Assembly: GCF_900660675.1 (NCBI RefSeq)
Contig: NZ_LR215039.1
Coordinates: forward strand, 496,001-560,000
Reading direction: 5' to 3'
Length of the DNA: 64,000 nucleotides
Source of the DNA: Mycoplasmopsis columboralis
Lineage (GTDB): Bacteria > Bacillota_I > Bacilli_A > Mycoplasmatales > Metamycoplasmataceae
Of the stretch, positions 2,315 through 33,211 are shown in pieces. Numbering within the stretch: position 1 is the stretch's first letter; the number at the start of each line of letters is the position of its first letter. The translations under genes were made by a program, and so were the position numbers. The notes under the pieces are model-generated. The model did not search any database and was not told the origin of the DNA. It saw only the letters and a list, made by a program, of their open reading frames with translations.

Positions 2315-4312
2315 ATGAATTTAATTAACTGAAACGAAGAACAATTTAAAGACTTTGATTCTAAATTTGCATACGATAAAGATGATTTAGGGGTAACAAA
2401 AAACAATGAAGGATTTTTGATTAAACTTTGACAGCCAATTGCTAAAAATGTTGAAGTATTAATTTTCAAAGATTACTTGTCAAATGATTTTCAAGTTCTT
2501 AATATGAATAAAAAAGAACAAATTTGAGAGTTGCAACTTTCAAATGAATATCAAGGGTCTTTTTATCAGTATCGTATAACTCATAGCGATGATAGTGTAA
2601 CCATTGCTTTAGATCCTTATGCAAAATCTATGGCTCCTTTTAATCACTTACAACAAAAAGTTGGGAAAGCTTTAATTTTTGATTGAGACACCACCATTAA
2701 TAAACCTCAAAAATTGCAACCTCAAATTAGCAACAACATCAAAGCCATTGTTTACGAACTACAAATTAGGGATTTTACCAGCATTTATCCTGGTAAATTA
2801 CAAGCTAAAAACGGAACATTTAACGCTGCTTTAGAAGCTAATATTTTCGAACATTTAACCAATCTAAACATTACACATTTACAACTTTTACCTTTACAAA
2901 GCACTTACACAGTCAATGAGTTTGAGCAAAAAATTTATCTCCAAAATCAAGGAAATGGTTGAAATACTAACTACAATTGAGGTTATGATCCACATAACTA
3001 TTTCACTTTGAATGGTATTTTTTCAAGTGATCCATTATCTTCTGTTCAAAGAATTCATGAGTTTGCTAATTTTATTAATGAAGCTCACAAAAATAAAATT
3101 GGCATTATTATGGATGTGGTTTTTAACCATTTAATGCATAACGATATCTTTAATAACATTCTTCCTGGTTATTACTTTAGAAACAACGCCAAACAATACC
3201 CGGTTGATCAACCTCCTCTTGCCACTCAAAGATTCATGGTTAGAAAGTTAATTATTGATGTCTTAAAATATTTTGTTCAATACTTTAATGTTGATGGATT
3301 TAGATTCGACTTATCATGTTTTTTTGACAAACAAACACATGAACAAATTGCTTTTGAGCTTAGAAAAATTAATCCAAATATCATTTTACATGGTGAAGCT
3401 TGACCTTTTTCTGATTTAGAATTTTCTTCTACTTACATTAAAGGTTACAATGATAATGATTTTGAGTTTGCATATTTTAACGATACTCTCAGAGATTCAA
3501 TTACTTGCAATGAAAATAATAAATCTCAAAAAGGTTTAATTATTGAAAATAATTTAGAACAATTTAAACGCTACGTATCTTCAATTGTAGGTAATTTAAA
3601 AGACTACAAATGAGGTGATATTGAACATTCGAATAATTTTTATGACCTTTTTGCTAATACAACCAAGATAAATTTAGGATATGTTTCATGCCATGATGGA
3701 TTTACTTTGTGGGACAAAATTATTATTAACTCTAAGAACAACACTTTTGAAGAACTAATTGAAAAATATCGAAAAGCTTTAATTATGTTGCACACTACTC
3801 AAGGTCGCAAGTTGCTTTTAGCAGGAACTGAATTACTCCAATCTAAACCATGCGATTTTTCTGGTCAAGATGGCAATAGATGTGAAGTTAGTCTTTCTAA
3901 AGATTATTTAAATTTAAATGCAGAAAAAAACATGGTACATCCAAATACATATAAAACTACCGATTATGTTAACTCCATGAAATGACAAAATCTTAATCTT
4001 CCTTTGGTAAAAGACAAAGTATTTGATTTTATTTCACAATTAAACGCTTTTAAATTAGAAACAGAATTTTTCAACCTTACAGATTTAGAACAAATTCAAA
4101 AAAACATAAACTTTGTTGAAGTAAATTCTTCTAAAGGACTAATAATATTTGAGGTTGCTGTTAACAAAGAAAAAGTTGTAGTTATGCACAATTTTAGCAC
4201 TCATAAACATTTATATGAACAATATAAAGATATGAATGTTTTATTTAGCTCTAAGTTAGAGCAAGTGTCATCCTTTGAACTTCTGCCATTTGAATCTAAA
4301 ATTTTAAGATAG
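2315..4312 (+). CDS. pulA: Type I pullulanase (GH13)
   Basis: A 665-residue glycoside hydrolase family 13 debranching enzyme, expected to cleave alpha-1,6 bonds of branched alpha-glucans. An N-terminal carbohydrate-binding/E-set-like region (KLWQPIAKNVEVLIF) is followed by the type I pullulanase signature YNWGYDPHNYF near residue 220. The GH13 regions are DVVFNH (I), GFRFDLSCFF with the nucleophile Asp (II), LHGEAW with the acid Glu (III) and VSCHDG (IV). There is no signal peptide, so it acts in the cytoplasm on imported oligosaccharides. The last codon and the TAG stop (4310-4312) lie in the ICE terminal repeat; without the ICE the protein would end ILN instead of ILR, so the insertion does not damage it. 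Confidence 0.93.
4299..4307 (+). repeat. Left target-site duplication of the ICE (AAATTTTAA)
   Basis: This 9-base sequence abuts the left terminal repeat at 4308. The same 9 bases directly follow the right terminal repeat at 33203-33211. This pattern is expected from staggered cutting by a DDE transposase. It lies within the last codons of pullulanase. Confidence 0.75.
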
Positions 4313-4330
4313 ATGCAAAAATTAGGTGGT
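4308..4330 (+). repeat. ICE left terminal inverted repeat
   Basis: Begins GATAGATG and ends in the core AAATTAGGTGGT. The reverse complement of the right end begins GATACATG and ends in the same 12-base core, with one extra base between. This repeat supplies the TAG stop codon of pullulanase. Confidence 0.75.
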
Positions 4331-4335
4331 CGGGA

Positions 4336-4366
4336 AAATACATCGTGAAAAGCGGTGTATTTTTTC
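4336..4366 (+). terminator. Rho-independent terminator just inside ICE left end
   Basis: The stem AAATACATCG / CGGTGTATTT (10 bp including one G-T pair) with a 7-base loop is followed by a T-run. In the integrated state it would stop pullulanase transcription from entering the ICE. In a circular ICE it would lie between the right-end promoter and the first gene, so it could also act as an attenuator. Confidence 0.65.
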
Positions 4367-4388
4367 TTACTTTAAGCAAGGAGTTTTT

Positions 4389-5126
4389 ATGAACAACGCA
4401 AATAGTGAATACCTATTGAAAAATGCAAAACTGAAAATTGATGAAGAAATTTTTCAAATTATCAATTTAAAAAGAAAAGCTCTTGTGCTATTTGCAATGT
4501 TGAACTGCTACTTTGAAAAGAATTCAGACAAAGTAGCAGTAAGCAGTTTAGATTTTAGAAAATTCAAATATGGAAATTGATCAATAGGAGAAGAAAAATA
4601 CTTTTCAAAATCAACCTTTTATCAGTCATTAAAAGACTTACAAAAAATGAAACTCATTAGTTTTGAAAATGAAAGAATTAAGCTTTTAAGAAAGCTACAC
4701 GAAAAAGGTAAAAGGTATTTTAAGGTTGATGATCAAGAAATGTTAAAGCAATTTGGAATGGTGAACCCAAAACAAATTTATTTTCAACTCTTAAATATGT
4801 TTTTGTTGAAAGCAAATTCTCCAAAGGAAGTGATAAGAAAAAAGTCTGAATTTAGACATAGCGACATTCGTTATGGAGAAGTTTGAGAAATAGAAAAAAG
4901 AATTTTTAGAAAGTGAGAATTTAAAATATCTTTCAGTTATTTTCTAAAAAAGAATTTTTCATATTCATCAATTTGAAGACATTTTAATTGCAAAATTTTC
5001 AAATCATTTAAAACAAATGCATTTAAGGTATTCAAAATTTTAAAAAATCTAATTAGACACGGGAAAAATCAATTTACAACAGAAAACATATTTTTTCTTG
5101 AAACAATAACAGTTAAACAACTGTAA
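4389..5126 (+). CDS. ICE protein of unknown function, possible winged-helix DNA-binding
   Basis: A 245-residue basic, soluble protein and the first gene of the ICE, with an AAGGAG site ahead of its ATG. The first 100 residues (IINLKRKALVLFAMLNCYF, then FSKSTFYQSLKDLQKMKLISF) look like a winged-helix fold: an alpha-helical core with a STFYQSLKDL recognition-like helix followed by a beta turn, as in RepA/DnaD-type initiators. The C-terminal half is rich in Lys and Phe and recalls no family. A role as replication initiator or regulator of the element is inferred from position and fold only; I do not recognise a named family. Confidence 0.7.
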
Positions 5127-5137
5127 ATTAAGAAATC

Positions 5138-5302
5138 GTAAAAAGAGATCAATGATGGACTAGGTAATACTTTATTATCTGTGAAAACAAATAAAACGAC
5201 AACTTGATTTTCAGTTTGCTAAAAGTCTTAGTTTTTTTCAGTTATTCAATTTTAGAGTCCAAAACTTGAAAAGCAAAGTAAAAAGAGATCTATTTTGGAC
5301 TA
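5138..5302 (+). repeat. Two direct repeats GTAAAAAGAGATC-N5-TGGACTA upstream of relaxase
   Basis: Two blocks, 5138-5162 and 5278-5302, share GTAAAAAGAGATC and TGGACTA at identical internal spacing and are exactly 140 bases apart. The second TGGACT also forms a 9-bp inverted repeat with AGTCCAAAA at 5256-5264. The region has no convincing gene and directly precedes the relaxase gene, where transfer origins often lie. It is a candidate oriT or a regulator-binding region; function is inferred. Confidence 0.5.
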
Positions 5303-5404
5303 TTAAGTAAGTATATAAACATTAAATAAACATTAGAGTATTTAACACAATGAAGGTAAAAAAGGTATTTGTGTTAATAAGGGGGTTCAATTAGTAAAGG
5401 AGTA

Positions 5405-32720: not shown

Positions 32721-32893
32721 AAAGCGAGTTATTTCTATTAAAAAACTTTGATCTTAAATCTTTAATTTTTGCTATTTTAAATCACTAAATTTTTTTGATT
32801 TTGTTAAGGTGTCCGTTTTTGTATGTAAAAACTAAAATAAACTAATATATTACATATATTAAAACTTCAAAAAAATACCTTTGCTTACAAAAA

Positions 32894-32942
32894 TGCATAC
32901 AAAATCAATTTTTGCATACAAATTTTTTTGTAGTGCATACAA
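32894..32942 (+). repeat. Three iteron-like repeats TGCATACAA
   Basis: Identical 9-mers at 32894-32902, 32913-32921 and 32934-32942, roughly two helical turns apart, embedded in A/T runs. An inverted copy (TTGTATGCA) lies at 33082-33090. Regular phasing is typical of binding sites for replication initiators or for transposases at element ends. No equivalent copies are seen at the left end. Confidence 0.6.
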
Positions 32943-33041
32943 GAAAATTTGAATTCCATTTACTATAAGTAAATGAATTTAAGAGTGCTTTTAACGGTAA
33001 GTTAAACTTGACAGCACTTTTTCTTGCTTAAAAGCATACGG

Positions 33042-33059
33042 GTGCGTGTGATCACGCAC
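33042..33059. promoter_or_regulatory. GC-rich hairpin GTGCGTG-TGAT-CACGCAC, candidate oriT element
   Basis: A 7-bp perfect stem that is far more GC-rich than its surroundings, with a 4-base loop and no following T-run, so it is not a terminator. GC-rich hairpins next to repeated boxes are common at transfer origins. The nic-site assignment is inferred. Confidence 0.5.
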
Positions 33060-33144
33060 GAGAAGGGGTTTGCATCATATTTTGTATGCAAGCTAATTTT
33101 CGTATATTTTTTTGAACTTTTTTACTTTTGGTGATTTTCTGGTG

Positions 33145-33150
33145 TATAAT
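33145..33150 (+). promoter_or_regulatory. Outward-facing -10 box at ICE right end
   Basis: TATAAT followed by TTTATTGC, 14 bases identical to the element before the secretion operon (20833-20846). It points out of the ICE. In the integrated state it would run into the bidirectional terminator at 33220; in the circular ICE it would point at the first gene (4389). Confidence 0.55.
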
Positions 33151-33178
33151 TTTATTGCTTAAAGATGTAAATTCTTTT

Positions 33179-33202
33179 ACCACCTAATTTCTTTCATGTA
33201 TC
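33179..33202 (-). repeat. ICE right terminal inverted repeat
   Basis: The reverse complement begins GATACATG and ends AAATTAGGTGGT. It matches the left end (4308-4330) with a perfect 12-base core and a GATA-ATG outer part, with one base of length difference. Confidence 0.75.
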
Positions 33203-33211
33203 AAATTTTAA
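33203..33211 (+). repeat. Right target-site duplication of the ICE (AAATTTTAA)
   Basis: Identical to 4299-4307 and directly abuts the right terminal repeat. The bases that follow (ATTAG) restore the AAT TAG end of pullulanase when the element is removed in silico. Confidence 0.75.

Follow-up and report, generated by a model that had tools for sequence, protein, structure and literature searches.

Mycoplasma integrative and conjugative elements (ICEs; mycoplasma ICE, MICE) of the p-MULT5 type, namely ICEA, ICEB, ICEF and ICEHo, are the closest described relatives of the element reported here. These elements of 22–37 kb have the gene for a DDE transposase at their right end, encode VirD4- and VirB4-like proteins, and are bounded by terminal inverted repeats with a terminal G/C and by short target duplications at variable sites. 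MICE integration is random (PMC3942029, PMC7466169), with no target motif found in published analyses (PMC3942029), and a harmless gene-end insertion is already on record for ICEHo of M. hominis (PMC7648426). The window analysed in this study, 64,000 nucleotides (nt) of Mycoplasmopsis columboralis (NZ_LR215039.1, positions 496,001 to 560,000, forward strand), contains an ICE at 4308–33202 that lies at the end of a type I pullulanase-like gene. It shares this size range, gene content, type of ends and variable siting with the p-MULT5 elements but differs from them in its own 23/24-bp repeat sequence, in a target duplication of 9 bp where 8 bp is usual, and in a transposase whose nearest relative found is 43–46% identical. 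TnGBS and ISLre2 (p-MULT3) resemble it in their Mutator-like DDE transposase, their circular intermediate and the 8–9 bp duplications reported for the superfamily; they insert upstream of sigma-A promoters, whereas the M. columboralis ICE shows no such choice.

The joint at the pullulanase gene end

The data very strongly favour the view that a MICE inserted one base into the last codon of the pullulanase gene, that its tip gives the gene a stop codon and a likely terminator, and that the event was harmless by luck plus survivorship, with no choice of gene ends. The features at the two borders are as follows.

2315–4312, + strand: type I pullulanase-like gene (genetic code 4; open reading frame (ORF) and profile matches); its last two codon bases and TAG come from the ICE
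4299–4307, no strand: left copy of the target-site duplication, AAATTTTAA, 9 bp, exactly abutting the left repeat
4308–33202, + strand: whole ICE, 28,895 bp, delimited by repeats and duplication (second copy in the genome, 28,713 bp)
4308–4330, + strand: left terminal inverted repeat, GATAGATGCAAAAATTAGGTGGT, 23 bp, with the TAG stop as bases 3–5
33179–33202, − strand: right terminal inverted repeat, GATACATGAAAGAAATTAGGTGGT, 24 bp (reverse-strand reading)
33203–33211, no strand: right copy of the target-site duplication, 9 bp, exactly abutting the right repeat
33212–33216, + strand: displaced pullulanase end (..AT TAG), from sequence and frame reconstruction
33219–33242, no strand: host bidirectional terminator-like hairpin (both-strand scan and folding), once shared by pullulanase and its convergent neighbour
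33231–33875, − strand: convergent neighbour, a membrane protein gene (ORF), untouched, adjoining a MalK-like ABC transporter ATPase gene (PF00005/PF17912)

The 9-mer AAATTTTAA directly abuts one element tip at each border, exactly where the original prediction had placed it. As the DNA is AT-rich, this 9-mer by itself is common (11 occurrences in the window, against 27 expected by chance), and it counts as evidence because it is placed exactly at both inverted-repeat tips; with the ends fixed by the repeats, the probability that nine flank bases match by chance is about 2e-5 by our own arithmetic for AT-rich composition. The left tip begins GATAGATG with the fixed tip GATAG, and the two repeats, which have G...C tips, are one indel apart. 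A search of 4000–34000 against Rfam gave no match. The fifth occurrence of AAATTAGGTGGT in the genome (C1:432016) lies outside both ICE copies and has no repeat context; it was taken as chance.

The computed reading frames agree with what had been predicted for the protein end. The gene now ends AAA ATT TTA A|GA TAG (ILR-stop), in which the A at 4307 belongs to the host and GA TAG to the ICE, so that the stop codon lies inside the left repeat. In silico removal of the ICE and one 9-mer gives ATT TTA AAT TAG (...FESKILN*), and the predicted ICE-free site, a reconstruction, reads ...ATTTTAAATTAG... / ...TCTAAAATTTTAAATTAGAAAAGCAGCAC.... The reconstructed stop is 14 bp from the stop of the convergent neighbour and stands beside the bidirectional hairpin, which, as anticipated, is terminator-like on both strands. 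The insertion had been assigned to the last two codons; the position at the gene end holds, but the precise joint is within the last sense codon, following its first base, and the old stop is intact beyond the ICE. The gene was thus not destroyed, since its frame continues to the ICE-borne TAG with one residue changed. Mechanistically, the duplicated 9 bp and the fixed tip GATAG happen to set TAG in frame, the protein change is a single C-terminal residue (N to R), and the old stop and shared hairpin have remained on the neighbour's side.

Concerning the enzyme, the protein scored 344 bits against TIGR02104, under the curated cut-off of 504.5, and matched CBM48 and alpha-amylase domains. Its homologues carry variable tails of a few residues past the matching strand; therefore, the single altered last residue should be neutral for the enzyme.

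Several points weigh against this interpretation of the locus. The empty site is reconstructed, not observed, and in the pullulanase relatives (41–51% identical) the genes are arranged differently, the membrane gene lying upstream and on the same strand, which gives no confirmation of the joint. Hairpin function and promoter activity are read from the consensus. A scan of genome contigs with the pullulanase query returned no relatives, the only hits to the repeat-end pattern were four unrelated records from bacteria, and viral-contig searches matched nothing.

Target duplication and choice of insertion site

The original prediction had doubted the 9-bp duplication, as 8 bp was expected for this family, and had proposed checking other copies for the same ends. 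Such a second copy is present in the same genome, with its left tip near the end of contig C1 (949,469) and its right tip at C1 28,632; it spans C1:949469–949548 and C1:1–28632 across the contig start (28,713 bp). Its outer ends are identical to those of the first copy, its flanks repeat AGAAAATGT, also 9 bp, and closing it restores one hsdS frame of 399 codons, whose right part matches Methylase_S. The two copies are 94–97% identical in the longer aligned blocks, and at the left end the outermost 81 bp match without a difference. As the second copy also has 9 bp, this length is a property of the M. columboralis ICE and not an accident. Contig C1 appears closed on itself at the second copy. 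It starts exactly at the ATG of coding sequence 1 (CDS1) of the ICE, much as though assembly software had set the start of the chromosome to that gene.

In the survey of related elements, ends were set by inverted repeat and duplication, with no other feature used, and about half of the fetched elements, which had no recognisable end pair, were left out. Duplications of 8 bp were clear in nine elements (G067A, G020, G005b, G010, G079, G281, G194, G159, G241) and probable in four (G075, G110, G063a, G232a), while 9 bp was found in G255 and both M. columboralis copies; G194 could alternatively be read as 9 bp if its repeats were shifted by one base. The length of 9 bp is therefore a minority among mycoplasma ICEs but falls inside the range of 8 or 9 bp published for transposases of the Mutator-like superfamily (PMC3942029).

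A true duplication of 8 bp, with the extra base belonging to the element (a right tip ...TATCA, or one base carried at the left tip), would explain the 1-bp difference in length between the left and right repeats (23 vs 24) and the A at the start of both M. columboralis duplications. It would also agree with the 13 related elements of 8 bp, including the nearest relative's copy G067A, and with the 8 bp published for ICEF (PMC3317919) and ICEHo (PMC6813540, PMC7648426). Under this reading, however, the ninth base would have to match by coincidence in each of the two copies (overall chance about 0.1), and the base immediately outside the left tip is not the same in the two (A and T). Further, G255 has repeats of equal length with a clean 9-bp duplication, and the two G067 copies diverge exactly past the terminal C, so that the base to its right varies and the duplication must start there. 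We consider an 8-bp duplication improbable and retain 9 bp. In G067, two ICE copies have near-identical right ends and interiors that are rearranged and inverted. For G067 copies B and C, the right ends were read and left ends were not found, probably owing to rearrangement.

Given that the joint falls in the last codon, beside a terminator hairpin, it could be supposed that the ICE, like some other elements, has a preference for the 3' ends of genes or for terminators and that the transposase selects the position. ICEHo-I copies 2 and 3 of M. hominis strain FBG (PMC7648426) likewise lie at the 3' end of a gene left intact, although the two cases differ: in M. hominis the duplicated bases reproduce the end of the gene itself, whereas here the element tip donates the stop codon and the last residue changes. 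Against such a preference, the second M. columboralis copy is inside hsdS, and published analyses describe no target motif (PMC3942029). Among 12 resolved insertions, assessed with ORFs of 80 codons or more, the pullulanase insertion is the only one located where a spanning ORF ends; two are well inside ORFs (the second copy and G020), one lies in an ORF, but just 17 nt from its ATG, and is ambiguous (G281), and in the remaining eight no ORF crosses the insertion point. This pattern fits random insertion, and gene-end targeting, which we regard as very unlikely, was rejected on the spread of the 12 insertion points. Target choice would then lack gene-end specificity, and the harmless outcome may be ascribed to luck plus survivorship.

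Putative transcription signals at the element tips

The following features, including a hairpin not mentioned in the original prediction, stand at the two tips.

4332–4366, + strand: intrinsic-terminator-like hairpin, directed inward (−17.1 kcal/mol, z −6.5)
4370–4379, + strand: left arm of a subterminal inverted repeat, CTTTAAGCAA, complement of 33155–33164
4389–5126, + strand: CDS1 of the ICE (ORF), starting 23 nt past the hairpin
33121–33150, + strand: outward promoter-like site TTTACT-18-TATAAT at the right end (consensus; outward −10 enriched in ten elements)
33155–33164, + strand: right arm of the subterminal inverted repeat, TTGCTTAAAG, complement of 4370–4379

The hairpin sits just inside the left repeat, 24 bp in from the tip. 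It probably terminates the pullulanase mRNA and protects the ICE against transcription from the host side. Such a hairpin occurs within 120 nt of the left tip in 8 of 10 related elements, the M. columboralis ICE included, and in none of the same ten at the right tip, in the left flank or in the three interior samples taken from every element. When four further elements were added and the limit was widened to 150 nt, the count was 12 of 14; the interior background was 16 of 1109 windows of 120 nt (1.4%). The stems differ in sequence among elements. A left-end terminator thus seems to be a general feature of mycoplasma ICEs; we found no description of it in the open-access papers that were searched, and it may be described elsewhere.

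Rather than terminating transcripts of host genes, the same hairpin may belong to a leader through which CDS1 is controlled when the element is circular. CDS1 would lack its own promoter because its start, only 23 nt past the hairpin, is too close to leave room for one, and in the circle the hairpin would follow the outward promoter of the right end. Although quite possible, this leader function is somewhat less than an even prospect, and it is not exclusive of termination, since a terminator with a T-tract acts on any entering transcript. Termination of the pullulanase transcript is retained here as a probable role.

At the right end of the ten elements, the outward −10 score was 6.65, compared with 5.08 ± 0.23 in shuffles (0 of 300 reached 6.65), and scores were flat in inward, left-end and interior controls. 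The order in the circle would be promoter, right repeat, coupling bases, left repeat, hairpin and CDS1. In the integrated state, transcripts that exit through the right tip would be halted as well, by the host hairpin at 33219–33242. The arms TTGCTTAAAG and CTTTAAGCAA form a perfect 10-nt complementary pair, the first just past the −10 box and the second just before the ribosome site of CDS1, and in RNA that reads across the circular joint both the terminal-repeat hairpin and the terminator would lie between them. Complementary pairs, mostly of other letters, occur at the same places in G067A, G255, G020 and G063a and are unclear in seven others; as the pair was first noticed in the M. columboralis ICE and then tested, it is a lead and not a result. 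A more speculative and, in our view, doubtful scheme is that the ends of mycoplasma ICEs are a split control cassette, in which the right-tip promoter and left-tip terminator are joined only in the circle and the complementary pair closes the RNA leader. CDS1 would then be silent and insulated in the integrated element; its expression, subject to attenuation, would require excision.

Gene content and meaning for mycoplasma ICEs

The identity of the element as a mycoplasma ICE of the p-MULT5/DDE type, already proposed in general terms, is upheld by models specific to the ICE transposase and VirB4, both of which scored above their cut-offs. The genes that could be assigned are listed below.

5618–6655, + strand: MobL/MobP3-like relaxase (PF18555, E 1e-8; NF041499, E 7e-19, under its cut-off)
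6665–7150, + strand: single-strand binding protein (PF00436)
17231–19885, + strand: VirD4/TraG-type coupling protein (PF02534, E 2e-27)
23569–26184, + strand: VirB4/TraE-type ATPase of mycoplasma ICEs (NF045975, 775 bits, cut-off 590)
31551–32720, + strand: p-MULT5 DDE transposase (CDS22), predicted mover of the ICE (NF046004 'ICE element transposase-like', 311 bits, cut-off 162)

The sequence features by which MICE are recognised were found: a p-MULT5 transposase gene adjoining the right repeat (its end 482 bp short of the tip), TraG/VirD4 and TraE/VirB4 conjugation genes, terminal inverted repeats of 18–39 bp with a conserved terminal cytosine (here 23/24 bp), a target duplication of 8 or 9 bp (9 bp in both copies), and no fixed insertion site (the pullulanase end vs the inside of hsdS). 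MICE are further characterised by conjugative transfer and by excision as a circle that carries a coupling sequence of 6–8 nt. We infer that the ICE may be mobile today. The nearest transposase among 61 genomes of the genus and 298 of the order is encoded in G067. CDS1 had no Pfam or NCBIfam match. The relaxase, which contains a HTNSDNPHLHLVF motif, is in line with the MobM-like prediction for ICEHo CDS3 (PMC6813540). A C5 cytosine methyltransferase gene is apparently split into 9680–10306 and, after a gap, a second part at about 10640–10936. Elsewhere in the genome, contig C2 (17,127 bp) carries ICE fragments of 70–93% identity, mostly in opposite orientation, beside housekeeping-like genes; it has the appearance of an unplaced chromosomal piece that contains the remains of an ICE, and it had no match in the plasmid collection.

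Taken as a whole, the insertion is for the most part unremarkable and the element is of a known kind, but it exposes end features common to many such elements. The two copies provide base-level evidence that some mycoplasma ICEs make 9-bp duplications. Further, the pullulanase insertion shows how a gene can survive the arrival of a large element: the element's tip brings a stop codon and a likely terminator with it. If functional, the left-end terminator would bear on how these elements avoid host transcription and how their first gene is switched on.
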